37,719 nucleotides of DNA from a virus. The position numbers and the translations under genes are program-made. This document shows, in pieces, positions 5,679 to 34,810 of this stretch (positions are counted from its first letter, which is position 1; the number at the start of each line of letters is the position of its first letter). The notes beneath the pieces were generated by a model, which had not been told where the DNA came from, did not search any database, and worked only from the letters and a program-made list of their open reading frames with translations. The stretch covers positions 75,906-113,624 of IMG/VR virus record IMGVR_UViG_3300030101_002380, one strand, 5' to 3'.

Positions 5679-5691
5679 TTTATTATTTAAC
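5667..5691. terminator. Weak imperfect dyad across convergent stop codons
   Basis: GTTAA (5667-5671) and TTAAC (5687-5691) pair across the two convergent stops (TAG ending at 5678, minus-strand TAA starting at 5683-5685), with only four bases between the genes. The stem is short and interrupted. A bidirectional terminator is expected at such a convergence, and this is the only candidate, but the structure is not convincing. Confidence 0.2.
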
Positions 5692-8600: not shown

Positions 8601-11319
8601 CAGGACTTGTTGCTAAATCACTAACACCAAACCTTGTTGTACTTATATCAGCAATAGGAGTGTCATGAGTTGTAATAATATTTCTTATATCTTCCTCTGT
8701 TAGATTTGCATTAGTTGTGTTTGTTCTAAACAATTCTAAAGTATAGTTTGTTATACCAGCATTAATAAGACCTTTATTTGTATATGCCCCCTCACCTAAA
8801 ACTTGATCAAGAAGAGTTCTTAGCTGATCTCTTAGCTGTTGAGACCTATTACCAAGAGGTGCACCTTTTGGATTTGATATAATATCAATACCTCTATATG
8901 CTTTTGCAACACCCTCCATTGCAAATATTCTATCTATATATCTTGTTGTACCTTGTTCTTTAGGATCATTAATATAGTTTATAAAATCCTGAATTTCATC
9001 AACAGATCTTTGCAGTAGCTCATCATATATAACATCAGATGTACCTAACATTCTAGCTGTTTGGATATCATTTATAGCTTTATCCATAGCCTTAATGATT
9101 TGCTCTACATCTTCAGTTTGCTGACCTCTATCTTGTAATCTTTCTAATACCTCTTTTTGAGATACAAGCTTTACTTGATAACTCTTGAGTGTATCATCTT
9201 TAATCTTGTACATATCAGTTTCAGTATATGCACCATCTGGTTGTTGATCTTCTTCATTTAATTTATTTGTGTCAGCTTGATCTGCTCTTTCTTCTTTAGC
9301 AAATGCATCTTCATTCATAGGTACCACCTGATCAACAAAGTGACCCATCTGAGATGGATTATGATATGTTGTACCCTCTACTCTAAAGTTTGAAACTTTC
9401 TTCCCAGATAAATCAACTTTAATATGTATTGTTTGTGAGTCAGTACTAACTTCATAACCCATATTTTGAAGTATTCTTCTATATGTATTTACTTGTAAAT
9501 TATGTTGTGTCTTTGTAGTAAACTTTTGCTGATCATTCTTTGATGCATCTGGATCATAAAATTTACTACCCTCATTTACAGGGTACTTTCTATTACCATA
9601 CTGGTCATCCTTTATAGAGTTCTTGCTTGTTTTAAGATCTACAATAGTAAGTGTCCCATCATTATGTACAACAAGTAAATCAATTGTACCGGCTATTGAT
9701 GTTCCTGCATCAGCTATTACAACTTGTGGTATCACAACAGAGCCTTGATCTCTATACATAGTTAGCATAGTTTGTATTTGATCTACAGCTCTAACTACTT
9801 GGTCAGCCTTAAGCACTTTCATTTTACTTGTAAGTGATTCTATATCAGCCTCCTCACCTATAGGCATTACAGCTAGATACTCCATAATTGAATCAAAGTC
9901 ATCACCTATCTCTCTGTTAATCTTATATTTATTCTCAGGATCATTTAAATTACCCTTGATCATGCCAGTAACAGAGCTAAACTGCTCACCCGTCTCTACA
10001 TTAACGTATGTATGATCTTCTTTGTTTAGTATAACTAAAGGTGTCTCAGTTCCAGTTAGTGTACTTCCTACAGTAAAATCCTCAAAGTTCTCTTTATTCT
10101 CTATATTCTCACCGGTTAGTTCTGCTATCCTTTGTTCTTGCACATCTGTTGTAGCCTGATTTTTTAATTCTTTTACCTGTGCTTTTCTTTCTGGTGTAAG
10201 AGAAAATTTAACTCTACTATCTGAACTAACAGATGATCTGTCAAACCTAAACTCAAGTGCATCATTGTTTAAGAGCTTTGCTAAGCTAGATAATGTATTA
10301 TCTGATCTTAACATATTAGCTTTTACAGGAACTCTTTTACCTTGTAAATACAAGCTCATATCTTGAATAACATCAAGTATAAATCTCAATAGCTCAGATA
10401 GTTTTTGTTTCCATGACAGGGTAGGTCTTTCTTCATATTCTTTATTGAAGTGTCTAGATAAAGCCTGAGTGACTAGCTCAACATCTCTATCTTGATTTGT
10501 AAATCCTCTTCTAGATGTATATGTACCATCTATTTGTAACTTTAATTGAGGAAACATTTTCTTAGCTTCTGCTAAGAGACTATTAAATAATGCTGGCTTC
10601 TGTAACATTACCGCATCTATAAATGGATGAAGTACTTCTTCTACTGCTGTGTCAGCATTAACCCTTCCTTTAATAATGTATGCCACACCGTTGACATAGT
10701 AGCTTCGTAAACTATCAAAACCAACACCTCTTCTTTGATATGATTTTAATGAGTCATAATATTCCCTTGCTTCTTTTACACTAGCTACTCTAATATCTAG
10801 CTGAGGAAATATACCTTGCATGTGATTTACTATATCTAGTATGTGTGTTTTATTTTTATTATTATTTTGAGATATAATATCCTGTGGTGCAAATATTACA
10901 GGATTCATAGTAACTTTATATGTGTTCTCTGTTCTTGTAATGTTTACAGAGTCTCTAGATATATTCCAGAAATCAAGTAAGTTTAAAAGTTTTAATCTAT
11001 TATTCTCAGCTACCCTCCTATCAATCCTTTCTATTTGTCCTTTCTCAGTTACATTTACATAATACTCACCGTTGTATTTACTAATCAAACCTGCATTATC
11101 TAGATTAGATAATATAGCATCAGCATACTGCTTTTGCTTAAGAGAAAATTTAACTCTTTCATTTGCAATATACTTTTCTGCTTGAAATATAGTAGGAAAA
11201 TTATCTGATTTTGTACTCTTTTGCCATCTATCAATAATATTATCTACCAATATTTGATCACCATACTTACCCTCTAGGGCTTTATACTCTGCTGTATTTC
11301 TGTTAAAACACTTTGCCAT
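5683..11319 (-). CDS. Giant virion cargo protein with degenerate zincin and PD-(D/E)XK nuclease domains (1878 aa)
   Basis: Several regions are visible in this protein. Residues 206-340 resemble the zincin protease region of the neighbouring giant: EEVLH at 227-231 stands where HExxH is expected, so the first His is Glu, followed by a helix resembling the third-ligand region. Residues 436-640 look like a PD-(D/E)XK nuclease: HTY at 436, a FSSVTGM turn, GTIDLLV with Asp547, IVDLKTSK with Asp561 and Lys563, then a QHNLQVNTYRRIL helix. The hexapeptide RVKFSL occurs at 55 and 369, flanking the protease-like region. The rest is largely helical, with hydrophobic stretches near 1405-1430 and 1736-1752, the latter followed by six consecutive Asp. 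I infer an internal virion protein ejected with the DNA, able to contact membrane and cut DNA. The start lies two bases past the stop of the RNA polymerase giant. Confidence 0.8.
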   Translation of the reverse strand: MAKCFNRNTAEYKALEGKYGDQILVDNIIDRWQKSTKSDNFPTIFQAEKYIANERVKFSLKQKQYADAILSNLDNAGLISKYNGEYYVNVTEKGQIERIDRRVAENNRLKLLNLLDFWNISRDSVNITRTENTYKVTMNPVIFAPQDIISQNNNKNKTHILDIVNHMQGIFPQLDIRVASVKEAREYYDSLKSYQRRGVGFDSLRSYYVNGVAYIIKGRVNADTAVEEVLHPFIDAVMLQKPALFNSLLAEAKKMFPQLKLQIDGTYTSRRGFTNQDRDVELVTQALSRHFNKEYEERPTLSWKQKLSELLRFILDVIQDMSLYLQGKRVPVKANMLRSDNTLSSLAKLLNNDALEFRFDRSSVSSDSRVKFSLTPERKAQVKELKNQATTDVQEQRIAELTGENIENKENFEDFTVGSTLTGTETPLVILNKEDHTYVNVETGEQFSSVTGMIKGNLNDPENKYKINREIGDDFDSIMEYLAVMPIGEEADIESLTSKMKVLKADQVVRAVDQIQTMLTMYRDQGSVVIPQVVIADAGTSIAGTIDLLVVHNDGTLTIVDLKTSKNSIKDDQYGNRKYPVNEGSKFYDPDASKNDQQKFTTKTQHNLQVNTYRRILQNMGYEVSTDSQTIHIKVDLSGKKVSNFRVEGTTYHNPSQMGHFVDQVVPMNEDAFAKEERADQADTNKLNEEDQQPDGAYTETDMYKIKDDTLKSYQVKLVSQKEVLERLQDRGQQTEDVEQIIKAMDKAINDIQTARMLGTSDVIYDELLQRSVDEIQDFINYINDPKEQGTTRYIDRIFAMEGVAKAYRGIDIISNPKGAPLGNRSQQLRDQLRTLLDQVLGEGAYTNKGLINAGITNYTLELFRTNTTNANLTEEDIRNIITTHDTPIADISTTRFGVSDLATSPDPLSQLLDKIYKRQVQKTLDLAEERADEIRRRASKLAKLSPGGKVDYSFMLNYDKDGNFTGTYVKRIGQKYEAQWSTLRYNDQGESIFKDPYVYKDNLEDYTDEELAYNKKLYDQRKAYADFMRGERVIDGAPQDGDFHRYTKEYKDAREKLMYFSLFANKENGRWKFKASASKRQRREFLDKYHNLAPGNYIDKDADGRPTGVVKRQDSGYDGGGIGFVKSQFVEVRDVARNGDRMVSDKYEKLMNPNPNDSLAVAQKEFYLMYIRLFEEDLLRKLPQSIQAKMLGNSLTIRENFFNEVRREGGLVGKLTSTASQGIKNFFSTTLRVEKVVADENGNFIEDTLPIFYVGNTQDERKLKAINDELAALEQDFANKKIKLDAYKEKKTELVAERNSVQSAPSKKELSQDMAKNLLLFNGMAQNYETMSEIKNSVAAIIKTMENRRYTKEGFVGIVGSLRNAVGKGQTEEVGQGKDSNIVKRAKKWVNMVYLDNSRKTQGWMEKMARGLVSYTSLTYVGLNWFGNINNYAMGRLNNMVEVAGGRYYDRTAYARAEMEYNKSIPLMMTSLGDSSTWAPVVGGDGYKKYIPRSKYEAIANYMRMMDEKADIREQSREGAQDIKSAAWSAAYMFQDMAEYNVQTKVGMAIMMSTTVRNSQTGEEMSYYDALQHNSKTGEVKLKEGFDQLIRFGERRTDSEGNLVTQSLLDETARYDVRNQIREVNKQIHGNYAYADRMVIQDHVLGQLIAQFHKWVVPGLDARFRKEYYNENLGWVEGRYKSFLNVMGYIIKEKGQIGKALREMEFQVGKERADNKLKGMYRTLADFGIAMSSFIMAMILGNLFDDDDDDKGQTQKRLENALVYQFNRQAREFMFFFPVIGATEQYMMAKSPIPIMRSLGELAGAMKSTGQYGLANLGVYGLFEEDYDITKDTRVYYQRTGRKGTLKLKKEWADALPLIYMYNRWSAYDTINDWFVK
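6067..6084 (-). repeat. Six consecutive Asp codons (GAT)6
   Basis: A run of six GAT codons encodes LFDDDDDDK directly after the C-terminal hydrophobic segment of the 1878-residue protein. Trinucleotide expansion by slippage is the simple explanation. The acidic cluster next to a membrane-like helix could set topology or bind cations. Confidence 0.7.
10198..10215 (-). repeat. 18-base direct repeat, copy 2, encoding RVKFSL
   Basis: This is the second identical copy, encoding residues 369-374, between the protease-like region and the nuclease domain. Short F-S-L/I motifs between domains are a feature I associate with large multidomain phage and plasmid polyproteins; a protease-processing role is possible. 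Confidence 0.8.
11140..11157 (-). repeat. 18-base direct repeat, copy 1, encoding RVKFSL
   Basis: The 18 bases AAGAGAAAATTTAACTCT (plus strand) encode RVKFSL at residues 55-60 of the 1878-residue protein and recur identically at 10198-10215. All six codons match, including synonymous positions. The copy sits near the border between the N-terminus and the protease-like region. Confidence 0.8.
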
Positions 11320-11321
11320 AA

Positions 11322-14300
11322 TTATCTACATTTTTTAAGCCTGTCCATAAACTCTTCTTGAGATACAGGAACAATTGCATTTGTGGTTTTATATCTTTCT
11401 ATTGCTGATTCTGCACTAGTAATATTTTGATTCTCTGACAATGCACTTTTTTCTTCAGAAGTTAAATCATTCCATGCATTTTCTATGGTAGAGTAATCAG
11501 CATTAGGATCTTCTTTTACTTGAACCTTAATACTATTTCCAGTAGTATCTACATTTATATTTTCATCTAACTGCTCTGTATTATTCTCACTCATCTCTTG
11601 GATTTTCTCTAGCTTAGACTTTTCTTTATCTTGTTTAGTTTCTGCCATTATCTTTTTTAAATCCTGCTTGCTAACTGTTATTTGCACAGAGTCATTAGTT
11701 GCCTCAGTAATAACACCCTTCATACCCATACCTACTGGATCTTTGCTTGCTGCTCCTGCTATTTTGTCCATAGCATTTTCATTTGTATCAATAGCAGAAT
11801 CTCTATTTTCTTTTTTCTCTTGTAAATATTCATATGTTGATCTATCACCATGAATAAATCCAGCATCATACTGCTGCATAGATCCGTCTGGTTTTACCTC
11901 TTCGTATGTAGCTTTAAGTCCATATGCAATATCTTCTTCTGCAAAGTTAATAGTATCTGTATAATTACCAAACTCTTTTGGTGTATATAAATACTTAAGA
12001 ACAAATGTTCTAACATCTTTCTTTGTTCTACTGCCTGGAGTTTGATTTGCTACACTTACATCCATTTTTATCTCTTGAGGAAAACCTATAAGCTCCACTG
12101 TTTGTGATCCTCCTTTACGTATAATGTTTACAGACTTAGTAGGAGTAAGACCTCCACGCAATGCCGCTTTAATATTCTTAGTGTTTCTTTCTCTTCTTTT
12201 AGCAACAACAAAGTCTACATTCTGATACTTGCCTTTCTTTCTTTTTTCTTTCTTAGAAAAACTTTCTTTATGGTTAGTATTCATTTCAATAGTCCAAGTT
12301 AAATCTTCTTGCTGCTGTAATAATATAGGTTTAGTATTTCTATTTATAGCTTTCTTTCTATTTTTCTTAAATGGTATAACTTGAGATGTTATTCGTTTAC
12401 CAACTTTTCTTTTTACATTTTGTAAAAAATAAATGTTACCTCTAGAATTAGAATACCCTTCTATCCATTCTCTTAGTAATCCATCTCTTGTTTCTCCAAA
12501 CAATGAAACAAACTGACCATCAGAGATATTTTGATTATTAAATAAATCTGTAACGTTGCCAGAAACATTAAGTATATCATCTAATAATGGTACAGGTATT
12601 ATATCTATAAATGTGTCTCTTTCATAAGTAAGTCCATCTTTTAAAATTAAATAATGTATTAAATGCCTTACATCTTCTCTTAATTGAGGCATTGCATATA
12701 AATCTCTCAATCCATTTTGTAAGTTAGTAATCTGTGCACTATTTAAACTAGTCCAAGTTTTACCCTTTACCATATTAATCATTGCTTTATTTGTAGGATT
12801 CTTTGTATCTACTTTAGCTACAAACTCCATAAAAGCATTTGATTTTTGTTCTTGTTTTAATACAGTTCTGATATTATCAATAACGGAGTTTATAGTTATT
12901 GGGCCAGCAAACTCATCATAAATAAATCCATTGTTTAATGAAACTGCTAGCTTTGATAAACCTTTATCATTTAAAGCTTTCATGTATGCCTTTATAATAA
13001 AGAAACTTAAAAGATTTTTATCTACTTTATTTGTTTCAATATAAGGTAAATTCTGTTTTGTAACATTTCTAAACTTTTCAAAGGTTGGAGACATTGTAAC
13101 AAATATAGCTGGCATACTTTGTTTTAAATTTTCTAATATAGTAGCATATCTACCTTGGAAAGTTTTATCTTTCTTAAATAAGAATCTTACATCAAAAGGA
13201 ATTGTAGTATCTTTTTCAAAAGTTTTATCGTTCATAAAGACACCAATATCTGTCATATCATTAAATGCTTTAGAAATATCATCTATAGAGCTAAAGTCAA
13301 ATGATGTATTTGTAGATAGAACTTGTAAAGTTTGTAGTTTATTGCTTAATGAATATGCATTTCTAAATAAATATAATATTGATAGCTTTTCTATATTATC
13401 TACAGCCTCTGAACTTTGAATTTCATCAACTAATAAATCAGTTGTAACTTGAGTTTCAAAAGCTAACTTCTTAGCATCATCATTTAAATCCTCTAAATTA
13501 CCAATTTCATTAGCAAGTAAACTACCAACAGTACCTTCACCAGCTTCTGCACGTGCATATATATCACGTACGGTAGGTTGATTTACAAGTAGTATTGCCG
13601 TCTTAAGATCCACACCCAAACTAACAAGACCAACTGTAATTCCTAAAGCGTTTCTGTTTAAACCAAGTTTACCCAAAAGTCTTTCTTTGGCATTATCTGT
13701 TGCAGCTGTTACTAGTGCAGATATAATAAATTGTTTTCTATCACCACTAATTATAGGTCTGCCTGTATTTGGATCTATAATATAATCACCTTTAAATGAT
13801 CTATAATTATATCCATTTACTTCTATATTACCCCCACGTATAAGTTCTTCTCTAACATTTTGAGATCTAAGACTTACATTATACTCTTTTAAAATATTAA
13901 CAATAATATTAGGTAATACTGCTGCACCAATAGCACCCGCTCCAGCTTTATTATTTACCCATGATCTGTACATTCCTACAGGACTTTCAATAATAACACC
14001 ATCTTCTCTTGTTAGTTCAGCTAGCTCAGGTAATAAAGCTTCTGTTTCTTTAGTTCCTAGTAGTTCATTTGCAACTTCTATAACAGGATCTAATACTGCA
14101 GGTTCGTAAGCAACTCCAACGGGTCTATCAAACTTACCTTCTGTCATACTATTATTACCTAACAATATATACTTTAGATCTAATGCTTGATTGCTTTGTG
14201 CTGCTGTATACGGTAGTCTATTAAATTTATTTTTATACTGTTCAAACTCTTGTTTTGTAACAGGTAATTCTAATATTTTTAATGCACCCACTATACCTTC

Positions 14301-17300
14301 TGATGGTAATGATAAATCATCAACAGTTGCAGGATCTGTTATTCTGCCTCTAGACTTCCATAAGTCTAATGCATAATTCATAGATGTTCCCTTTTTCTTA
14401 GCATCAGCTATCATGTAGTCTAAGTACTCTTGATACTGCTGATTTACATTTTCTGTTGCACCATATTCAATAAACTCTCCATCCTTCATATAAAACTCTT
14501 TCATATGAGTATAAAGTTTATCAATATCAAAGTCAGCTCCTGATATTTCAACTAACTCAGTTGGGAACATTGCAGATGATCCATATTCTACCGGTAAGAA
14601 ATCTACTACCTTTAAGTTTATAGCTGAGTGCTTATCCTGTGAAGGTATACGCACACCAAACATTTTAGCAATTACATCTGGCAAAGCTTCTCCAGATTTT
14701 ACTTTTGATAATCTTGAGTCCCATGCAGGCATTGCTGTTTCAGAATAAACAAGACCAGTTTCATTACCATCTTTATCATACTCCTTAACGTTCATTCTTA
14801 ACTCATCAAGATATATATCCCCTACTTTTAAACCAGAGAATGTTCTTTCATCTTTATTATCATAATCTGTTTTAGCTAATTCTTCTCTATTCTTTAAGTA
14901 GTCTTCTCTTCTTATTACTTCCCATCTTATTGGTTGACCTGTCTCAGGATCAATAGCTAATGCCTTCTTGTAAAACTTCTTACCAAAGTTAGATACAAGT
15001 GCAAAGCTCTCTCCATTTACTCTTTCAGATAACTCCCCTTTAGAAAAGAATGCTAAAAATAATTGTTGAAATTTATTTTGAGTTATAGGATTATTTAAAT
15101 CATACTTTTGTGCACCTGTTTCATCAAGTTCAAATAACTCCATAAACTGAGGGCTTGCTGCAGAAGCAGCTAATGCAGACTGCGCATACTTTAAAAATGC
15201 ACTTAAATCTACAGTAACTTCACCTAGCTCTATACTATCTTGAAGCTCGTCTTGTGCTTTTTGGTAATCAAATATAAGGTTACGTCTTTGTAGATATTTA
15301 ATTTCTACTCTATCACCTATTGTTTTATTATATAAAGCTCTTACATCACCCAAAGACATTTCTTGATTACCAACTCTTACTCTAAGGCTATTGTCTTGCT
15401 CACTTGTAATAAGTTGCTTTATCTGTGTAGGATCACTAATAGTACCTTTATTTGAAGGTGTTATCTGCTGCAATCTCATATACTTAGCAGACAGATCAGT
15501 TACATAACCACTATTAAGAAAATCATCATACTGTGCATCATCATTTAAATTAAAACCAGGGTTCAAAATAACCTCTTTAGGCACAACATTTTTCTTTGCT
15601 GCTTTAGATGCAGAAGCAGGTAAGGCAACTGATATAGTGTCTATACCTTTTTCTTCTACAGATTCCATTGCAACTCTTAAGTTATGCAACTCTACTGCAT
15701 CAGGTAATGCTGTCTCAAAGTTTGTTTCTGGATCAGAAGTTAATCTCTTTGATAAGACAAAAGCAGACATCTTTAAGAACACCTCACCGTCAAAATACAC
15801 AAACTTTTTAGAGTTCATTATACCACCTAATGCTTTATAGCCTGCTTCATTTACACCAGCACCATAAAACTCAGATAAAGAAATATTTTCTCCTGCATCA
15901 ACTTTATCCATTATTCTAGCTTGTGCAGAAGTTAGACTACCTATACCAAACATTAAATATCTAAATGCTTTAGATGTATAATACATCTGAGCATCTGTAG
16001 ATGTAACTGGTTTGTCATCTGTTGGAGTTCTACCAAATCTTGCAGGTACATCTATATCTTCAAAAGTTATTAAGCTTATATGATTAACTGCATGATTTAT
16101 ACCTAAACCGGATTTAATACTACCATCTTCTCTAAATACATATGGAGCACTAATAAAACTTTGTGCACTTGGACCAGCCGCATTTAAAGCTTTTGCTCTT
16201 TTAATTTCATCTACAGAGTCTTTAAATAATCTAGACGGATCTTGTAAAAGCACTTGTTTAAATAATGTTCTATTTAACCAATCATTATAAAATATTTGCT
16301 TAAGGTTATGATTGTCAGGATTATTAGCAATAAGATTTAATTTGCTTGCTGACTTTGCTGCATTACCTTTTGTTTGACCCTTGCTTGTCTTAAGCACACT
16401 AATAAGTCTTTGATCAACAAATTCTAAAGTCTTATTGTTTTGCAATATTGTTAAATGCTCTTCAAACTCTTGATTTAATCTCTGCAAAATAAGATCTCTT
16501 ACACTAACTCCAAGATCTGCTTCTATCTGAGCCTTTGCTTCTTCATACGTAAAGTCCTCAGATTCATTAGCGGCCCTTTCTAATAAATCTATTACTTGAT
16601 CATTAATATCTTTTTGTTCTGTTGGTGTTTGATCTACAACTTCTACGGCTCCTGTTATTTCAAACATAGCTTCTGTAATAGCTGTAGGTTTTTGTACTAA
16701 CACTATATTTTCAGTAGTACTTCCCTTTAACCAGTTTTGTAATGCTTTAGTTCTTGTAAAATAGTCTACATCACCTAATGTTACTTTATACTTATTATTA
16801 TTAGTTTTAACATTAGTCATGTCATTACCAAGTAACTTTTGCAACTGTGTTATTGTATAATCACTTGAATCAATAACACCTATATTAGTAAATATATACT
16901 TTTCATCACTTAAAGTCTTATCACCTACAGTATTAATAGAACCATAAATATCAGTACCTGTTCTTAAATTAAGCTTAGCAACAGTTGCTGGTTTCATTAT
17001 AATTAATTGTTGTGACCCTTCTTCTAGATTTTCTATATTAGATCTTACTGATGCTGGTACACCAACACTTTGATTTACGCCAAGAGCATTTAGCTTCTTA
17101 ACTACTGTTTTACTTTTGCTTAATAAATTCTTACCATTATATAATCTATAAGCTCTACCAGAATCACTATCATTATATCCTAATATTTCATCTTCTGTGT
17201 ATCCTTGCTTTTGGAATCTTTCACGGTTTATTCTTTCTAGCTCAGCTTTAATAACAGCATCCTCAAACTTATCTATTGTTTCTTGGGTTACTGTTGATTT

Positions 17301-20300
17301 ACCAGCCTTGTACTCTACTGTCATAAGAACAGGTAATGGTACAAAGTCTGCAGTATTAGATTCAGATATAACTGTAAGATTATTTAATGATGTTACATAC
17401 TTTTTAGTTTTACCATCTTCATCTATATATTCTGATTCTGTAACTTCACCTGTTGCATTATTAAATGCAGATAAATATAAATTAATAGCTAATGCTTGAA
17501 ACTCTCTACCTGATACAGAGCCAAAACTTTTATTATTATCACTTGCACCAAGTTTATTATTAGCTTTATAATTACCATTATCATCAGCTTCTAATGATGT
17601 ATATTTAACACCACCCATTCTAGCAACCCTTAGCTTACCACTTACCACCAATGCTCTAAATCTAGGATCAGTAAGCATTGCATTAGTTGTCATAAATGGA
17701 TTAGTTAACATTTCATCTAGTGCATCTTCTGTATTTAATTCTGCTACTTTTTCTAAGTTATATGTTGGCATTTGATGTGCATAGATAAGTTTACCTTCTG
17801 CATTTCTAAATACTGTTGAGCCTACTGTAGAGTCAAATATTGCATTTAACTGGGCTAACTTTTTAATTCTAAATTTAACATCAGTACCTGTAGAAGATTC
17901 ATTATCATTATCATCAATGTCCTCTTCCGTCATGTCATAATAAAGATTAGCTTTTGCTCTACCATCTTTTGTTCTACCATGAGCATCTACAGCTGATTTA
18001 ATCTCTTGTACATCTTCAATACCAAATAAAGTAGAAGTATTTGGTGCAAATAGCTTAACAAACTTTCTTTGCTCTGCTGTTTTATTAGGCACACCTTCAT
18101 TTAGTATAATAAATTTAACAGTTGCTGGTGCAAGCTTCATACCTAATTTATTAAATAGGGCATCTGATATTTCTCTTGAAACCTTTTCTAATTCTGCATT
18201 TGTAACAGAATCTTTATTACTATAGAACTCTATTCTTCCAAGAACAGCTGATGCAGCATTTTTTGTTGATTGATCATCATTTAATTTATTCACTAAAACA
18301 GAGTAATGATCTTGCCAGTTATCTATTTGTGTAGATGCATCATCTCTAGATGTTGACTTAAATATATTTACAACACCAGCATCTTGATCAACTTCCAATT
18401 GATAGTAATCAGATCTTAACTGTGTAAATCCTTTTAGTATAGATTGGAAAAATCCTTGGCTTCTTATCTGCTCAGCATTATAATTACCAGCAGTAAAATC
18501 TTCTACTGACTTATCTGATAAATTAAACTTAGCAAATAAATCTCCTATTGCAGCTCTAGTATCATCGTTCTCATTTTCAAAATACTTTAATCTAGCAAGC
18601 ATTTGATTAGGGTCAGTAATACCTGCTAAAGCTTTCATAAATGTATTATAAATATTTACATAGTTAACAGGTGTAAGAACTTGCTTCTCTGTTACAGGAT
18701 CTTTTATACTTTTAAATCTTGTTGCAAAAAATATACGGATACCCTTACTAAGTGATTTAGATCCACCAATTTCATTTGCAGACGCTTCAAAGTCTTCATC
18801 ATTTTTAAGTGATGTATCTAGTGCTGCTGTATTTCTATCTAGTATAATCTCAGCATCTTCTATTTGAGTATCAAATAAATTTAAAAAGTCTGATACACTC
18901 TTCTTTACATCTTCTTTATATGTTTTTAATCCTTCATATCTTTCCTCTAATAAATCTAACTGAGGATCACTTAAGGTTTCTGCATAAATTAGTTCTCCAT
19001 TCTCTTCTCTTGCAGGATTCTGTTCTTCTATATATTCATCTATTATTCTTAATAATAACTGATTAGAATTATACTTACCATCAAAGTCTTTTGCTTTTGT
19101 TAACTCTTCCTGAGCCTCAAAAAATCTAGCAGTTATAGTTCCTACAACTAACTCAGTTTCTTGCTGTGTAAAATAGTTATTAATATAATAGATTTCACTA
19201 TCTTCTGATCTAGGTAATAATCTTGTCTTTGGTATAGGATCACCTTTACGTATTGCAAATGCCATACTAGTAGATGCACCAGTTTGTTCTAATACAGCTG
19301 AATCTAATGCAGAAACTGTAAATCTATTATTTTGAATTGGTGCTGATCTATACTTACCACTATCTATATCATTAAATAATCCTTGTATATCTCCCTTACT
19401 GTATGATAAAAACAGATCTTTAATAAAATCAATTATACGCTGGAAAAAACTTTTAACTTCAGGATCAACTATTGCACTTTTAGGATCAGCTTTAAAAGCC
19501 TCAAACTGATCAGCTAAATACTCTTCATGAATAACTTCATTTAATTCTTCATTTGTCATGTCAGAATATGTCTGAGATAATGTTCTCATATACTCTCTTG
19601 CCTCTGCCATAGATGTTACAAAAGTATTATTATCTATTTCATAACCTCCTGCATTCATCAATCTTCTAACTTGATCACTTGCAGATCTTAGATATCTTTT
19701 AATCTCTGCTTCAGTTAACATCATTCTAAACACTGCATGAAATGCTTCATGGTATCTAAAACCTGTCTGTTTACCAACATAAACAGTACCAGCTAAACCT
19801 TGTATACCTTTAGATATTTTACCAACCTCTATAGCAAATGCACCTAATGTAATACCCTTGCTAATAAGTCTTCTACCTAAGTCATCTATACTTTTAATTC
19901 TAATATAATCTGGTAAATTATCATTAGCCCACTTAATAAACTCATTAATCTCTTCAACATTTCTGCCATCAAAATTATCTAATGTAATCTTACCTATTAA
20001 ACCTTCCTTAAGTTTTTTAATTTCACTCTCAAGCTTTTTAACTCCAGGACTATATTTTACAGCGTTTCTAGCTTGTAATCTATATTGTCCTTTAGTTTGT
20101 CCAGGATTCTCCTTCTTAAATTGTTCTGTAAATTGATTTATTAATTTTTGTTTTAGTAACTTGAGTTCTTTTTCTTTATTAACAATCTTTTTAGCTAAGT
20201 CTTCATTACCATATTCTGCCTGCACTCCATCTTCATCTTTCTCTAATGCTCCTTCTATTGTAGAAGTTTCTGTTGCTAATGCTAAATCTATACCTGATTT

Positions 20301-23300
20301 CTCTTTGTATGCTTCAGCTATATCTTTTTCAATCTGTGTTAACTCATCAAATCCAACATCATTAATCTTTTGTCTTATACCTTCTATAATCTCTTCTGGT
20401 ATATTTTCAAAGTCATTCTCTAATAAATCATTATATATTTCTTGAGTTGTAGGTTGAGGTGCATTATTGTCATCATCTACAGTTTCTGATGTTGTATCTA
20501 CATCATTTACTGCATTAATGTTATTCATAGACTGCTTAATCCTATCTTCATTTGTATAGTTTAAATCAACCATCTGACCCCATCTTAAACTTGGAATTAT
20601 ATTAGCAGATAAACCAATACCTTCTAGATCAGATACATCAGATAAGTTTCTTGGTAGATTAGGAACAAAGCTTTGATCATTTAATTTTATTTTAAATTTA
20701 GCTCCCTTAGCATCTTTAGATTTATTAATCCTGTTATTAATAATTGTAGCTAAACCATTTAAATCTGAAATCTCATTTAAATCTTCTATATTTAAATATT
20801 CTGTAATAGTAATATCATTATTCTTTACAGTAATTTCTAAACCACCTCTTTTGTTAAATCTCATAAAGACATTTGTACCAGGTGCACCAGTTTGAATATA
20901 AAAGTTTAATTCTTTTAGTTTAGCACTAGCCTGATCACCAATTTCTTCAGGATCAAATTTATCTGTCTTTGATTTAAATTTACCTTTATCATCTTTAACT
21001 TCTGATAAAAGTTCTTCTTGTATACCTTTAATATCTGTTACAATCTGCTTTCCGTCTTCTGCTGATATAGCATCTAATTTAATTTCAAAGTATGCTATTG
21101 TACCATTAGGCATAGTCACAAACTGCACATACCTACCCATACCTAACTCACCAATATTATTAAAACCATCTTTTTGTAACTGATTAAATATCTTCAATTG
21201 TATATCTTGCTCTTCTCTAGATCCTGGTTCTAAATTTTTAGATGGTACCAAAGTTGCTCTTCTTACACCTTTCTCATCTTTTCTTGTATCATATATAATT
21301 GTATAGCTACCATTTTCAGTTGAGAAAGTGCTAGACTCTAAATCCTCATATGGTGTTGATGCTGTCTTACCACCTTTAAGAACAGGATTACCATTTGCAT
21401 TAACTCTCCAACCATGGTAACCAGGTGTAATATTTAACTCTACATTATTAAGATCCTTAATATCTACTTTTGCATTTTCTTTATTACCTAAAACTTTTTC
21501 TAGCTCTTGTGTAATTAATAACGCTTTAGTATAATTTCTTCTTACAGATGCTGCTAGCTCTTCTGCACTCTGACCTCTATTCTTAATAAATAATTTTTCT
21601 GCTTGTTCTGCTGTTATCTTAGTTCCATCTATTCTGGTACCATCAGTATCAAATAATAATGTATTTGTAAGGCCTACCATAATACCTACAGGTTTACCTT
21701 GATATATTATTGTTATTTGATATTTATTTTGTCCATACTTAAGTTGATTATTCTCTGTATAGCCTGCTGTTGTACTAAACTTTTTACTGTTAGACTGATC
21801 TTCTTGATAGTCTGGATTTCTTTCAATAAGAAGTTCTAGATTTTCTGTACTATCAACAGGTATAGTTCTTAATAGTTGTTCAAACACATCATCCTGCTCA
21901 TAATTAATATCATCAAATTTGCCATGTAAAAAGAATCCAGGCTTAACCTTTATGCCATTAAAAGGGATTATAGTAATAGGTTGGAACTGAGAAACCTTAG
22001 TTGTAAGTGAACCAACAAGATCTACATCTTCTTCTTTTACCTTTTTAAATCCTTCTTTTGTATAATCTGCTTCAGTAATATATCTTCTACCGTCTTCTCC
22101 TTTCTTTTTGTTTGCATTATTAACAGGTACTAAAAATAAATTTTTAAACTTAGACACCATCTTTGGAGTAGATCTAATTAGATATTTATTACCTGAACTG
22201 TCTTCTATAATATCATTACTATTAAATTCTATTCCGTTAAATGTAAATGAACCAGATTTACTTATATTATTTTTATACCAAGTAAAAGCTTTCCTTGCTC
22301 TCTTTTCTAAATTTTTAGTAGTTTCTTTTGGTAATAGTGCATAACCTTCTGATATATACTTTCCATCTTGATCTAAAGATTTAAATTTATTGTATAAATT
22401 ATTACCTTTACCATCTACAATAGTATATACAACTTCTGGTTTACCTTCTTCATTAACAGTAGTTGTCTTAATAAGATTTATTCCTAAAGTATCATCTGAT
22501 ACAACAACTTCTTCTGTTGCATCCAGCTTGTCTTTTGCAATAGTTCCTTTACCAGCAAACTCTGGTGATACATCAGAATAATCTACATCATTCTTTGTAA
22601 GTATACCATTTGTTCCAACAATAAGGGGATTCCTTTGGTTAGCTTTTAACCAGTCATCCATTGTAGGAAATTTAGTTTTATCTATATTCTCATCATTTTG
22701 ATAATACTGATCTAACTCATACCTAGATTTAATTATATTTTTACCACCCTGTGCAGAAGCTGCCCACTGGTTTAATGACATAAACGGTCCATCATTTACA
22801 GTATAAGATGCTTTGTACTGTGCATATAACTTATTAATAATCTCTTGAGTATTTTTATCTTTCTTGTAAAATTGCTGATACTTACTTCTACCTACAACAC
22901 TTTCAAAATCTGGCTCAGCAGATGTATCTTCTTCTTGTGTTGCTTCAGCTTGAGTTGTTTCTCTTTTTGCATCTTTAGATTCTGCAGTTTCTACTGATTG
23001 AGATTTTTTAAGATCCTCAATTCTAGATATTATTCTTTTAAACAAAGCTGGGTCAGACAGTTGTGTAACTTGCCCTTCTTCTGTATAATACTGTGTAGGG
23101 ATTATACCTCTTTCTAAGAATAGTATTGTTTCATCTGGATCAGGTTGTACACCATCTTCTTCTGCTAATGTTTGCAACCATTGTATACGTATTCTTTTAT
23201 CTGTATATCTTTTTAATCTAAGTGTTTGATTATTTTTATCTGTATACTTTTTATATACATCTCCCATTATAGATGCAATCCTATCAATATATTCATTCAT

Positions 23301-26300
23301 ATATTCAGGATTCATTATAGTCATATGAGCTCTATAATAATCACCAGCTCTACCTTTTAGATAACTATGATCTATAATATCTATTATAGTTTTTCTTAAA
23401 TCTTTACCTTCAAGTAGCTCACCTTTAGTATCAGCAACATAAGCAATATAATCTATCATTGCTTTTTCTAAACCAGATGATTTAATTTTTCTTCTGTCAA
23501 ATCTACCAACTGTTCTTGTTGCACCAGGCTTTCCTTTAGCACCAAACACAGGTCTGCCTTCTTCATCTATACCAACAATATCTTGAAATGCTAAACCTTC
23601 ACTTACTATAGCATTTTCTGGATTGTCTAAAATTTCTTGTATGTTAGAAAGTAGCTCAAATCTTTTCTTCTTATCAGCAATTAATTCTTTTTCTTTTTTA
23701 GTTGTTCCAACTTTATTACTCTCTTCTTCAAGTAATGCTAACTCTTTTACTAGTTTGGTAGGATCTGTTAGAATGTCTATATCTAATGCGTTCAAAGATT
23801 TAAGTGCATCTATATTGGATAATTTTTCATATATTTCTTTAGATCTAATTAATGATGTCTGAAAAGTATTTTTAGTGTATAAAGCCATCATTCTTGCATG
23901 ATTAAATGCTGCAGCTTTTATAACTTCTTCTTGATATTCTCTTGAACCTTTATCAAATCTACTTGGGTTAAATGGATTTACAAATTCTGAATTAAATTGA
24001 TCATAGTTTTCTTGAACTTCTTTTGCTCTATCTTCAAACTTATTTAATCTTTTTCTTAGTGTTTCTGCTTTAGAATTAGGAGCTGAATCTTTGAATGCTT
24101 CTTTAAGAGTTTTGTCATCCATCTTTTTCATATCAGCTAACATATCTCTAAAGTGCCCCATCTTACCCAATGCTGCTGCTGTTTCTAATGCACCAAATAT
24201 TGCATTATCTTGAGAATCAAAGAAACTTAATAAGTCAGTGATATCAGCAGAATCAAACATTGCTTGATTAAATGCTTTTTGTTGTAATGCATTTAGTTTA
24301 GTTTTATCAAAAAACTTAGCTGGATCAGAATATATATCATTAAGTACTTTTACAGCTTTTTCTACAGCTGCATTTTTTTCTGCAACAAATTCATCCCACT
24401 TACCATCCTTCATGTACTTACTATATCCTTTCTTAAATATATTAGGTACATTATTAAATAAAAATCTTTGAGGACCTTGAACCATACCACCCATTAAGAA
24501 TCCTGACATAAATACTTTAAACCCTTCACCGCTCATTTGTGATCCAACACCTCTTTTAATTGCAGCATTAATATCAACAGCAGGGTTTCTATGTAATATA
24601 TCTGTTCCTAAAAATGTTCTTCTAGCATTATGATAATTTTCTGTCATGTCAACTAATTGCATGTCTAAGTCAGCTGCCATGTCTAAAGAATATAAACCAT
24701 CATAATATGACGTTACACCTTTAGCTGTAGCTTCTTGTGCAAGTTCTTGAATACCTTCTGCAAAATTTGCAGTTGAGTATGTTAATCCTGCTGCTGCAGC
24801 ATGTTTTAGAGTTCCCCCTACACCAGCTTGATACATTTTTCTAAATGTATTTCCTATCAACCAATCTTCACCAAGATCTTTAAAACCTGTTTTACCTCCT
24901 TGAAAGAATATTCTACCAAAAGGACCACTTAATGAATTTTGTATTTGCTTAGCTAACGGTTGAAAACCTCTCATAGCTGTTCCTAACACTAACTTATTAG
25001 AAAAGAAAATGATTGGAAAATTGATCATCTGAGTTGTAAATGCAGCTTGCCTTGCATCAGCACTAATCATATTTAACTGCTCCATTGATGGAGCGTTATT
25101 ATTGTTGTACTTATATATATCAGCATACAAATTATCTCTCATCTCCATCTCAACAAGACCACCTTCCATCTTAGACTCTGCCCAAGCTAAATTTACATTT
25201 CTAACATCTCTATAAAAATCTCCTAATAGTATAGAACCTTTTGCAAGTTGTGTTAAATTTTCACCTGCTTTTGCAGAGTGAGCTATACGCCTAAGTCCTT
25301 GTAAAGTTTGAGGAGTCAACATTCTACCCATTAAATTACCTGTTGCAAGTGTTCCTGCTTTTGCTGCATTAAACCAAGCTGTAGCATTATCTAATGATTT
25401 TAATTTAGTCATTAAGTTAGTTGCAGCCGTTGTATATGTCTTTGCAGTAAACATTCTTTTGATAGCATCTACACCTCTTTTAAAATTAAATGCAGTTCTT
25501 ACGCTTGCACCACCACCGGCACCACCACCAGATAATGCAGTGGCTCCTAAAAGAACAGCTTCTTCTAAAAGTATATTACTGATAATACCCATAGTATATG
25601 CACTGTTAACAAATAGATCATTAAAGAAAGCTCTTGTTCCTGTACTAGAAGATCTACCAATTCTCATTGCATCTTCCATTGCTTGAGCTCCTTGCATATC
25701 TGATAAAGAATTATCACCAGTAAAAAAATCTGATATAGCTCTATAGTTAGATGTAAAAGCATCACCAAATAGTGTACTAAATGCTGCTCTTGATCTAGAA
25801 AAATTATCCCACTTACTAGAATGTAAGTTATAATATGAATCATTGTTAGCAAAAGGATGAAAACCTAAATCTTTAAATCTAGGATGATTATAGTATCTAT
25901 CTAATTCATACTTCCTAGCATTATAACTTAGTGGATGCGTATATTCAGGAGTTGGGTTAGGTTCTGCAAATGCTGCTGTTATATTTTGTCCAGCAGCTAA
26001 ATAAGATTTTCTTCCCTCAGCTGTACTTAAATCAAAAGATCCTGTACTAGTTTCATAAGGATTAAAAGTACTACCCTGCATACTAGGTATAGGAGCATTT
26101 AAATTAGCATTTGTAAGTTGCATAGGATATTTAGACATATCAATAGCATGAGCTTCTAAATTGTCTAAAAATGGTTGATCATCAAACTTTGGTTGCTGAT
26201 CTATAGCAAGCTGTACAGCACCATCAAAAGAATCTTCATTAACAAAATTATTATCAAATCTTAATGAATACTCTGTAACACCTGTAAGAGGTCCCTTTAT

Positions 26301-26453
26301 TTCTTGTTGAAAAGATGGTGTATCTAGTGATGTATTTGCAGATGATTCTATAACAGGTGCATTGCTTATTTCATTAGCTATGTTAGCTTCAACATTAGCA
26401 TCTACACTTTCATTAAATACAGACTCATTTACATTTTCATTTAACTCTGCCAT
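11322..26453 (-). CDS. Giant crAss-like virion RNA polymerase polyprotein with zincin domain (5043 aa)
   Basis: This gene fills 40% of the window. The N-terminal third contains a conserved-looking crAss-like block (YELDRYYNHPRFKDLGFHP, then EDAMRIG), a hydrophobic Gly-rich stretch at about 283-312 and EGIQELAQEA near 567. A zincin metalloprotease motif, HEAFH, is at 2235-2239, with a likely third ligand in the later EEYLADQFEAF helix. The RNA polymerase active site is DFDID at 3974-3978, preceded by RIPSQ and VVDFLPVEYG and followed by NNKAGAGAIG. This matches the packaged single-chain RNA polymerase of Cellulophaga phage phi14:2 (gp66, roughly 2200 residues), whose DFDID Asps bind catalytic Mg and which is related to eukaryotic RNAi polymerases. 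I infer it is ejected with the genome to transcribe early genes. The large size implies fusion of cargo protein, protease and polymerase, perhaps with proteolytic release. No frameshift is seen. Confidence 0.93.
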   Translation of the reverse strand: MAELNENVNESVFNESVDANVEANIANEISNAPVIESSANTSLDTPSFQQEIKGPLTGVTEYSLRFDNNFVNEDSFDGAVQLAIDQQPKFDDQPFLDNLEAHAIDMSKYPMQLTNANLNAPIPSMQGSTFNPYETSTGSFDLSTAEGRKSYLAAGQNITAAFAEPNPTPEYTHPLSYNARKYELDRYYNHPRFKDLGFHPFANNDSYYNLHSSKWDNFSRSRAAFSTLFGDAFTSNYRAISDFFTGDNSLSDMQGAQAMEDAMRIGRSSSTGTRAFFNDLFVNSAYTMGIISNILLEEAVLLGATALSGGGAGGGASVRTAFNFKRGVDAIKRMFTAKTYTTAATNLMTKLKSLDNATAWFNAAKAGTLATGNLMGRMLTPQTLQGLRRIAHSAKAGENLTQLAKGSILLGDFYRDVRNVNLAWAESKMEGGLVEMEMRDNLYADIYKYNNNNAPSMEQLNMISADARQAAFTTQMINFPIIFFSNKLVLGTAMRGFQPLAKQIQNSLSGPFGRIFFQGGKTGFKDLGEDWLIGNTFRKMYQAGVGGTLKHAAAAGLTYSTANFAEGIQELAQEATAKGVTSYYDGLYSLDMAADLDMQLVDMTENYHNARRTFLGTDILHRNPAVDINAAIKRGVGSQMSGEGFKVFMSGFLMGGMVQGPQRFLFNNVPNIFKKGYSKYMKDGKWDEFVAEKNAAVEKAVKVLNDIYSDPAKFFDKTKLNALQQKAFNQAMFDSADITDLLSFFDSQDNAIFGALETAAALGKMGHFRDMLADMKKMDDKTLKEAFKDSAPNSKAETLRKRLNKFEDRAKEVQENYDQFNSEFVNPFNPSRFDKGSREYQEEVIKAAAFNHARMMALYTKNTFQTSLIRSKEIYEKLSNIDALKSLNALDIDILTDPTKLVKELALLEEESNKVGTTKKEKELIADKKKRFELLSNIQEILDNPENAIVSEGLAFQDIVGIDEEGRPVFGAKGKPGATRTVGRFDRRKIKSSGLEKAMIDYIAYVADTKGELLEGKDLRKTIIDIIDHSYLKGRAGDYYRAHMTIMNPEYMNEYIDRIASIMGDVYKKYTDKNNQTLRLKRYTDKRIRIQWLQTLAEEDGVQPDPDETILFLERGIIPTQYYTEEGQVTQLSDPALFKRIISRIEDLKKSQSVETAESKDAKRETTQAEATQEEDTSAEPDFESVVGRSKYQQFYKKDKNTQEIINKLYAQYKASYTVNDGPFMSLNQWAASAQGGKNIIKSRYELDQYYQNDENIDKTKFPTMDDWLKANQRNPLIVGTNGILTKNDVDYSDVSPEFAGKGTIAKDKLDATEEVVVSDDTLGINLIKTTTVNEEGKPEVVYTIVDGKGNNLYNKFKSLDQDGKYISEGYALLPKETTKNLEKRARKAFTWYKNNISKSGSFTFNGIEFNSNDIIEDSSGNKYLIRSTPKMVSKFKNLFLVPVNNANKKKGEDGRRYITEADYTKEGFKKVKEEDVDLVGSLTTKVSQFQPITIIPFNGIKVKPGFFLHGKFDDINYEQDDVFEQLLRTIPVDSTENLELLIERNPDYQEDQSNSKKFSTTAGYTENNQLKYGQNKYQITIIYQGKPVGIMVGLTNTLLFDTDGTRIDGTKITAEQAEKLFIKNRGQSAEELAASVRRNYTKALLITQELEKVLGNKENAKVDIKDLNNVELNITPGYHGWRVNANGNPVLKGGKTASTPYEDLESSTFSTENGSYTIIYDTRKDEKGVRRATLVPSKNLEPGSREEQDIQLKIFNQLQKDGFNNIGELGMGRYVQFVTMPNGTIAYFEIKLDAISAEDGKQIVTDIKGIQEELLSEVKDDKGKFKSKTDKFDPEEIGDQASAKLKELNFYIQTGAPGTNVFMRFNKRGGLEITVKNNDITITEYLNIEDLNEISDLNGLATIINNRINKSKDAKGAKFKIKLNDQSFVPNLPRNLSDVSDLEGIGLSANIIPSLRWGQMVDLNYTNEDRIKQSMNNINAVNDVDTTSETVDDDNNAPQPTTQEIYNDLLENDFENIPEEIIEGIRQKINDVGFDELTQIEKDIAEAYKEKSGIDLALATETSTIEGALEKDEDGVQAEYGNEDLAKKIVNKEKELKLLKQKLINQFTEQFKKENPGQTKGQYRLQARNAVKYSPGVKKLESEIKKLKEGLIGKITLDNFDGRNVEEINEFIKWANDNLPDYIRIKSIDDLGRRLISKGITLGAFAIEVGKISKGIQGLAGTVYVGKQTGFRYHEAFHAVFRMMLTEAEIKRYLRSASDQVRRLMNAGGYEIDNNTFVTSMAEAREYMRTLSQTYSDMTNEELNEVIHEEYLADQFEAFKADPKSAIVDPEVKSFFQRIIDFIKDLFLSYSKGDIQGLFNDIDSGKYRSAPIQNNRFTVSALDSAVLEQTGASTSMAFAIRKGDPIPKTRLLPRSEDSEIYYINNYFTQQETELVVGTITARFFEAQEELTKAKDFDGKYNSNQLLLRIIDEYIEEQNPAREENGELIYAETLSDPQLDLLEERYEGLKTYKEDVKKSVSDFLNLFDTQIEDAEIILDRNTAALDTSLKNDEDFEASANEIGGSKSLSKGIRIFFATRFKSIKDPVTEKQVLTPVNYVNIYNTFMKALAGITDPNQMLARLKYFENENDDTRAAIGDLFAKFNLSDKSVEDFTAGNYNAEQIRSQGFFQSILKGFTQLRSDYYQLEVDQDAGVVNIFKSTSRDDASTQIDNWQDHYSVLVNKLNDDQSTKNAASAVLGRIEFYSNKDSVTNAELEKVSREISDALFNKLGMKLAPATVKFIILNEGVPNKTAEQRKFVKLFAPNTSTLFGIEDVQEIKSAVDAHGRTKDGRAKANLYYDMTEEDIDDNDNESSTGTDVKFRIKKLAQLNAIFDSTVGSTVFRNAEGKLIYAHQMPTYNLEKVAELNTEDALDEMLTNPFMTTNAMLTDPRFRALVVSGKLRVARMGGVKYTSLEADDNGNYKANNKLGASDNNKSFGSVSGREFQALAINLYLSAFNNATGEVTESEYIDEDGKTKKYVTSLNNLTVISESNTADFVPLPVLMTVEYKAGKSTVTQETIDKFEDAVIKAELERINRERFQKQGYTEDEILGYNDSDSGRAYRLYNGKNLLSKSKTVVKKLNALGVNQSVGVPASVRSNIENLEEGSQQLIIMKPATVAKLNLRTGTDIYGSINTVGDKTLSDEKYIFTNIGVIDSSDYTITQLQKLLGNDMTNVKTNNNKYKVTLGDVDYFTRTKALQNWLKGSTTENIVLVQKPTAITEAMFEITGAVEVVDQTPTEQKDINDQVIDLLERAANESEDFTYEEAKAQIEADLGVSVRDLILQRLNQEFEEHLTILQNNKTLEFVDQRLISVLKTSKGQTKGNAAKSASKLNLIANNPDNHNLKQIFYNDWLNRTLFKQVLLQDPSRLFKDSVDEIKRAKALNAAGPSAQSFISAPYVFREDGSIKSGLGINHAVNHISLITFEDIDVPARFGRTPTDDKPVTSTDAQMYYTSKAFRYLMFGIGSLTSAQARIMDKVDAGENISLSEFYGAGVNEAGYKALGGIMNSKKFVYFDGEVFLKMSAFVLSKRLTSDPETNFETALPDAVELHNLRVAMESVEEKGIDTISVALPASASKAAKKNVVPKEVILNPGFNLNDDAQYDDFLNSGYVTDLSAKYMRLQQITPSNKGTISDPTQIKQLITSEQDNSLRVRVGNQEMSLGDVRALYNKTIGDRVEIKYLQRRNLIFDYQKAQDELQDSIELGEVTVDLSAFLKYAQSALAASAASPQFMELFELDETGAQKYDLNNPITQNKFQQLFLAFFSKGELSERVNGESFALVSNFGKKFYKKALAIDPETGQPIRWEVIRREDYLKNREELAKTDYDNKDERTFSGLKVGDIYLDELRMNVKEYDKDGNETGLVYSETAMPAWDSRLSKVKSGEALPDVIAKMFGVRIPSQDKHSAINLKVVDFLPVEYGSSAMFPTELVEISGADFDIDKLYTHMKEFYMKDGEFIEYGATENVNQQYQEYLDYMIADAKKKGTSMNYALDLWKSRGRITDPATVDDLSLPSEGIVGALKILELPVTKQEFEQYKNKFNRLPYTAAQSNQALDLKYILLGNNSMTEGKFDRPVGVAYEPAVLDPVIEVANELLGTKETEALLPELAELTREDGVIIESPVGMYRSWVNNKAGAGAIGAAVLPNIIVNILKEYNVSLRSQNVREELIRGGNIEVNGYNYRSFKGDYIIDPNTGRPIISGDRKQFIISALVTAATDNAKERLLGKLGLNRNALGITVGLVSLGVDLKTAILLVNQPTVRDIYARAEAGEGTVGSLLANEIGNLEDLNDDAKKLAFETQVTTDLLVDEIQSSEAVDNIEKLSILYLFRNAYSLSNKLQTLQVLSTNTSFDFSSIDDISKAFNDMTDIGVFMNDKTFEKDTTIPFDVRFLFKKDKTFQGRYATILENLKQSMPAIFVTMSPTFEKFRNVTKQNLPYIETNKVDKNLLSFFIIKAYMKALNDKGLSKLAVSLNNGFIYDEFAGPITINSVIDNIRTVLKQEQKSNAFMEFVAKVDTKNPTNKAMINMVKGKTWTSLNSAQITNLQNGLRDLYAMPQLREDVRHLIHYLILKDGLTYERDTFIDIIPVPLLDDILNVSGNVTDLFNNQNISDGQFVSLFGETRDGLLREWIEGYSNSRGNIYFLQNVKRKVGKRITSQVIPFKKNRKKAINRNTKPILLQQQEDLTWTIEMNTNHKESFSKKEKRKKGKYQNVDFVVAKRRERNTKNIKAALRGGLTPTKSVNIIRKGGSQTVELIGFPQEIKMDVSVANQTPGSRTKKDVRTFVLKYLYTPKEFGNYTDTINFAEEDIAYGLKATYEEVKPDGSMQQYDAGFIHGDRSTYEYLQEKKENRDSAIDTNENAMDKIAGAASKDPVGMGMKGVITEATNDSVQITVSKQDLKKIMAETKQDKEKSKLEKIQEMSENNTEQLDENINVDTTGNSIKVQVKEDPNADYSTIENAWNDLTSEEKSALSENQNITSAESAIERYKTTNAIVPVSQEEFMDRLKKCR

Positions 26454-30030: not shown

Positions 30031-30034
30031 ATTA

Positions 30035-30042
30035 CAAAGATA
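30035..30042 (-). promoter_or_regulatory. Bacteroidetes-type -7 box TATCTTTG
   Basis: On the minus strand TATCTTTG matches the TAnnTTTG consensus of the Bacteroidetes primary sigma factor exactly. Only four bases (TAAT) lie between it and the ATG of the 1188-residue gene, so a transcript starting at the usual distance would be leaderless or nearly so. No clear TTG or TTTG -33 element is seen at 19-25 bases upstream. In A/T-rich DNA such an octamer can arise by chance; its place in the only large gap of this block is the main support. Confidence 0.45.
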
Positions 30043-30092
30043 CTAAATTTTTATAGTTTGTCATATTTATCATAATACACTTTTAAAGTTTA

Positions 30093-34808: not shown

Positions 34809-34810
34809 AA

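Follow-up and report, generated by a model that had tools for sequence, protein, structure and literature searches.

In PhicrAss001 (Steigviridae), gp47, gp49 and gp50 are virion proteins (PMC10172136; PMC6235969) whose exit is thought to proceed via partial unfolding. The masses of gp49, gp47 and gp50 are 154.5, 262.5 and 276.9 kDa (PMC10172136), and bands of ~150, 270 and >300 kDa were identified by MALDI on virion gels (PMC6235969). All three modules resemble those of the locus described here, with HEAFH near the C-terminal end of gp47 and DFDVD in gp50, but they are separate genes and gp47 lies on the strand opposite gp50. The polymerase of Cellulophaga phage phi14:2, gp66 (2180 aa; PDB 6VR4), which transcribes the early genes (PMC7886860), is also a separate gene; gp65 and gp67 accompany it, and gp67 lacks HExxH. 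The p-crAssphage type (LMMB), crAss002 and cr11_1 (Intestiviridae) have giant transcription proteins, as our locus does, but their zincin protein (A) is separate and the polymerase (B) is fused to the third partner (C); the LMMB record already carries the label "RNAP catalytic subunit/RNAP subunit fusion protein". A review gives crAss-like RNAP genes as "up to ~6000 aa" (PMC10136315). Outside the crassviruses, the vRNAP of coliphage N4/Schitoviridae is likewise a giant polymerase that is packaged and then ejected, and its chain also bears a zincin-like HExxH domain (PMC12633501, PMC5512222), but it is an unrelated T7-type single-subunit polymerase of 3500 aa, and the zincin is C-terminal to the polymerase. 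An unfolding model is used to describe how this chain is ejected through a ~35 Å tail (PMC12633501). Iyer et al. 2017 proposed that N4-type virion polymerases are cut autoproteolytically by the zincin-like domain they carry; the same authors report that N4 vRNAP is packaged unprocessed, whereas P1 DdrB undergoes cleavage ahead of packaging (PMC5512222).

Architecture of the 5043-residue chain

The window, as we call the whole stretch of DNA analysed (37,719 nucleotides), is the terminal part of a 113,624-base virus record (IMGVR_UViG_3300030101_002380). Its features are given in Table 1. The initial annotation had reported a single chain of 5043 residues and more than 500 kDa with the polymerase motif at residue 3974, and the minus-strand ORF was found as stated, with an ATG start, no internal stops and a calculated mass of 566 kDa. 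HEAFH (residue 2235) is the sole HExxH of the chain and DFDID the sole DFDxD. Scans of the chain against Pfam and PHROGs matched no family.

Table 1. Features of the window (strand and positions on the window; residues are those of the encoded protein)
Feature	Positions	Strand	Basis
A+B fusion: gp47-like zincin protein and gp50/gp66-like virion RNA polymerase, 5043 aa	11322..26453	-	ORF reading, orthologues of 5033 and 5029 aa
Module A, residues 1-2379	19317..26453	-	gp47 similarity limited to C-terminal ~200 residues; remainder by position and size
Zincin-like domain, residues 2173-2379, C-terminal end of module A	19317..19937	-	blastp and profile to gp47
HEAFH motif, residues 2235-2239	19737..19751	-	motif search, 42-sequence alignment
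A/B junction, residues 2380-2426: linker of low conservation and variable length	19176..19316	-	conservation across alignment
Module B, residues 2427-5043: virion RNA polymerase with the domains on either side	11325..19175	-	blastp, profile comparison
RNA polymerase core, residues 3304-4638	12540..16544	-	hhalign; 6VR4 by profile and fold
DFDID catalytic motif, residues 3974-3978, in conserved block RIPSQDKHS...GADFDIDK	14520..14534	-	motif search, alignment
Gene C, 1878 aa, gp49/gp65-like RNA polymerase-associated protein, next gene downstream	5683..11319	-	blastp, profile
PDDEXK/exonuclease-like domain, gene C residues 443-573	9601..9993	-	phrog_298, hhalign
Three large upstream ORFs (1188, 1571 and 943 aa), position of ejection/tail cargo genes	26464..37642	-	position only

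Orthologues of near equal length are found in two other IMG/VR contigs (5033 and 5029 aa, 80% and 67% identity). As far as residue 5000, each 250-codon block, the one holding the junction among them, has clearly less nonsynonymous than synonymous change (residues 2251–2500 against L006, pS 0.53 and pN 0.15); the final block, with 43 codons, is too short for this judgement. In view of these orthologues and the purifying selection across the junction, the ORF is genuine and not a product of misassembly or readthrough. Related phages do have split forms, as would be expected had truly separate genes been joined by misassembly or readthrough, but the fused ORF recurs in dozens of independent contigs in the zincin-anchored scan and again in the polymerase-anchored one, named gut crassviruses have fused ORFs too, and selection acts across the joint. 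Because independent contigs carry the fused ORF, we regard an artefact as excluded.

The polymerase lies in the C-terminal half. Using tblastn against annotated phages, 141 records match at the DFDxD region, nearly all of them crAss-like, and GADFDIDK (residues 3972–3979), a GxDFDxD motif, aligns with crAss001, p-crAss, crAss002, DAC15 and phi14:2. A profile of the window and its two orthologues was matched by hhalign to a profile of crAss001 gp50, DAC15 and phi14:2 gp66 along the whole core (1128 columns, E 6.7e-27). When the sequence alone was run against the PDB with phmmer there was no match, and a profile was needed; with 31 sequences covering residues 3320–4495, 6VR4 is the sole convincing PDB sequence match (E 5e-14). 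The predicted model of the same residues (pLDDT 81, pTM 0.81) has 6VR4 as its sole PDB match at E <= 0.001 in Foldseek (E 4e-27, prob 1.00, TMq 0.61, 1304 columns), the match being scored on the whole model and not on the two double-psi beta barrels of the gp66 fold singled out. On the strength of the profile matches and the 6VR4-like predicted fold, residues 3304–4638 are assigned as a true crAss-like virion RNA polymerase of the gp66/gp50 family. The relationship to the phi14:2 enzyme noted in the initial annotation thus holds both by profile and by fold, and the structure prediction in segments that it called for gave, for the polymerase segment, no other significant fold match.

In L110:3179-13063 the polymerase half is ~50% identical to that of the window, while the N-terminal ~1730 residues have no detectable similarity and no HEAFH zincin; this may reflect a half-protein swap or a loss, judging from the sequence of a single contig in which misassembly is possible. 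ORFs for crAss-like polymerases are also present in contigs of cultured Bacteroidota genomes, namely a 5491-aa open frame with GSDFDID in Chitinophaga sp. YR573 (L175:1067-17539, NZ_FOJF01000001.1) and a 3367-aa open frame in Spirosoma oryzae DSM 28354 (L173), and these are possibly integrated or co-sequenced phages.

Within module A, residues 2173–2371 match residues 2103–2293 of crAss001 gp47, its C-terminal end (blastp, 28% identity, E 2e-9). A 42-sequence profile of the zincin-like domain matches gp47 with E 2e-44, gp47 being itself a member of the alignment; among non-members, the profile finds cr1_1 (E 1e-21), cr273_1 and cr52_1, with E values from 1e-14 to 1e-21. Both YHEAFH and a Glu further along (alignment residue 218) are invariant in the 42 aligned sequences; for YHEAFH this is partly imposed by its use as a search pattern, which does not apply to the Glu. 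The strong conservation of the domain fits an active protease. The internal protease of the initial annotation therefore stands as a zincin-like motif with an invariant Glu, the word "protease" being a reading of the motif: a 340-aa model (pLDDT 68.6, with the stretch ahead of the motif unreliable) has no PDB fold match, and a Pfam search of the domain gave none. The large N-terminal region, labelled cargo, is indeed a large protein fused to the polymerase. Alignment to the separate cargo and polymerase genes of relatives, another check proposed there, succeeded for B with gp50/gp66 and for the zincin-like domain with the gp47 C-terminus; for residues 1–2170, profile comparison with the A proteins (gp47/gp67) from three groups of crassviruses yielded no significant match. 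We call these residues gp47-like, and cargo, by analogy: from their position, their size (gp47 with 2341 aa and gp50 with 2412 aa sum to 4753 aa, compared with 5043 here) and the presence of gp47 in the PhicrAss001 virion.

Since the zincin-like domain aligns to gp47 and the polymerase to gp50, which are separate genes, the ORF is a head-to-tail fusion of a gp47-like protein (A) and a gp50-like protein (B). In split crassviruses HExxH is located 154–284 aa ahead of the end of gene A, which places the joint in the window just after the zincin-like domain, at ~2380–2426. Mean conservation of this linker is 0.29, compared with 0.62 in the zincin-like domain, and its aligned length is 26–59 aa. 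In L176:3046-3050 (DRHS01000117.1), a gene A with YHETFH, ending ~135 residues later, overlaps the polymerase gene B by a few bases at the expected A/B joint.

Gene C, the neighbouring genes and the identity of the phage

By sequence similarity gene C is the third partner (gp49/gp65): its residues 1302–1793 match crAss001 gp49 (blastp, E 6e-21), and it matches a gp49/gp65 profile with E 3e-25. Residues 410–633 match the phrog_298 exonuclease (E 2e-6) and the PDDEXK-like stretch matches a profile of A (hhalign, E 1e-5). That crAss-like phages can carry PDDEXK domains in their large proteins associated with transcription is already known (PMC7886860). In crAss001-type phages the related stretch lies in protein A, just ahead of the zincin. 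By these sequence comparisons, the PDDEXK-like domain has moved between chains A and C.

The three upstream ORFs have no clear homologue, and sequence and profile comparison gave no assignment to gp44–gp46 or gp68–gp70; the 1571-aa ORF weakly matches Fpv20 gp31 (E 0.002). The 943-aa ORF (window 34811-37642) has a HEYSH motif at residue 447. TerL is 26% identical over 90% to that of cr50_1, and the phage families matched by TerL, by the portal and by the MCP include crassviruses (PHROGs: TerL, portal, major head protein). With these three genes and the A+B and C transcription block, the virus is placed, by sequence, at the level of the order Crassvirales. Among annotated phages the best match of the MCP is Leptolyngbya phage Lbo-JY46 (L168, PP438436.1; 28% over 99%). 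This phage was considered as a cultured fused relative and rejected, as a search of PP438436.1, run without a positive control, gave no RNAP match.

Occurrence of the fusion and arrangement of the modules

The initial annotation had treated the fusion and its size as exceptional, which the relatives do not bear out. In a zincin-anchored scan of IMG/VR, 65 loci were obtained among the matches listed; zincin and DFDxD are on one ORF in 57, not in 5, and 3 are undeterminable (57/62 scorable). A first contig scan based on the RNAP gave the two closest relatives only and a wider alignment was needed. The polymerase-anchored scan, which is independent of zincin presence, had 71 fused loci among the best 80 of 563, with 4 not fused and 5 undeterminable (71/75 scorable). 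Both scans favour near relatives and their contig sets overlap, so that the fused fractions describe this clade and not the whole order. Orthologues of equal length in relatives, which had been named as evidence against the proposal, are largely found as far as the fusion is concerned; the lengths vary, and complete fused ORFs among the matches listed in the zincin-anchored scan are 2958–5705 aa long, with a median of 4649. In L065:14167-14278, L091:9089-9131 and L126:7919-7979 a break interrupts the fused ORF at some distance past the zincin, in the case of L065 ~130 codons ahead of DFDID; intron, frameshift and assembly error are candidate causes.

Gut crassviruses in GenBank have the same arrangement. 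In the Suoliviridae (delta crassvirus) cr1_1 (MT774380, 4551 aa), cr52_1 (NC_055888) and cr273_1 (NC_055904, 5794 aa), a HEAxH zincin and the polymerase are in one ORF, DFDxD follows the zincin by ~1440–1870 residues, and a separate C gene lies downstream, as in the window. These chains are nevertheless distant in sequence, with blastp matches to the window of 51–135 residues, and those of cr52_1 and cr273_1 differ in having in-frame stops under table 11. Flavobacterium phage Fpv20 has an A+B-type chain of 4419 aa with the polymerase on the C-terminal side, but it has no recognisable zincin. The fusion of zincin and RNAP is thus the usual state in environmental relatives and is also present in gut crassviruses, which rules out that it is peculiar to this virus.

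Three arrangements of the modules are observed. A, B and C are separate in crAss001, DAC15, cr128_1 and phi14:2; A is separate and B is fused with C, the alpha-type fusion, in p-crAssphage LMMB, crAss002, cr11_1 and cr127_1; and A is fused with B, with C separate, in the window, cr1_1, cr52_1 and cr273_1. On a quick tree of 46 polymerase cores, A+B is widely spread, and at least 4 changes are required to account for the three arrangements; the order of fusion and fission is not decided by this tree because the sample is enriched for fused loci, several branches are long and the tree is unrooted. One could speculate that A+B is ancestral, that gp47 and gp50 arose by fission at the linker and that in fused lineages the zincin may cut the linker after entry, giving the same protein set in all crassviruses; we consider this combination decidedly improbable.

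Probable packaging and ejection, and possible roles of the zincin-like domain

Given the observed chain, its homologies, module boundary and conserved fusion, together with the predicted polymerase fold, the best explanation as a whole is the following. A, ending in the zincin-like domain, the linker and B form one chain, which thus unites two of the three large transcription proteins known from crAss-like virions, and C comes from the next gene. As judged from relatives, the full chain would be packaged in the head, would unfold to leave through the tail and would then refold, a route proposed for crassvirus cargo and for the 3500-residue N4 vRNAP; once in the host, B would transcribe early genes. 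The zincin-like domain would act elsewhere than in a mandatory cut before ejection, either within a packaging/ejection module or, after entry, on proteins of the host or the phage. We give this reading, which draws on analogy, a probability of roughly 0.7. Ejection at full length is favoured because N4 vRNAP is reported to be packaged uncut and the PhicrAss001 bands fit uncut proteins; the bands are consistent with intact gp49, gp47 and gp50, A and B being already separate chains in that phage. An active protease inside the fused chain could, however, cut that chain.

Cleavage of the A/B linker by the zincin, in the head or after entry, would yield two proteins equivalent to PhicrAss001 gp47 and gp50, and thus recreate the natural split products, in which gene A ends 154–284 aa past HExxH. 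HEAFH and the downstream Glu are conserved, the linker varies in sequence and length, and zincin autoprocessing is a published proposal, with processing before packaging in the case of P1 DdrB (PMC5512222). Self-processing, already put forward for N4-type polymerases, is in this sense possible for the 5043-aa chain, but we do not favour it and judge it unlikely. The linker alignment revealed no conserved cleavage motif, and N4 vRNAP with its zincin is reported as packaged unprocessed (PMC5512222). The gp47 zincin and the polymerase of crAss001 are on different chains; therefore its conserved role there cannot be to free the polymerase. Fpv20 retains a chain of the fused type without a recognisable zincin, and L110 keeps the polymerase, having apparently lost the zincin-bearing half. 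The same separation of zincin and polymerase in crAss001 speaks for an injected effector that cleaves host proteins (e.g. defence or transcription factors), the link to the polymerase being a delivery arrangement only. That MPTases within injected polyvalent proteins might target the host has been suggested in print (PMC5512222), and the PDDEXK domain, a further enzymatic unit, is mobile between modules A and C; the zincin model, on the other hand, has no PDB relative and the domain no Pfam family. We view such an effector as a tentative possibility, at rather less than even odds.

The chain itself belongs to a known crAss-like fusion type, and the value of the analysis is in the module map and the precise joint. 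If the chain is processed, a cut is expected just after the zincin-like domain, which makes the cleavage idea testable, and relatives are named in which intact and cleaved chains would be distinguishable on a gel. The passage of a protein of >500 kDa through a phage tail, and its conversion into an active enzyme, is a problem that this virus has in common with N4. Crassviruses distribute one set of three modules over their chains in different ways, as three separate proteins, as A alongside a B+C fusion, or, as in this virus, as an A+B fusion alongside C.
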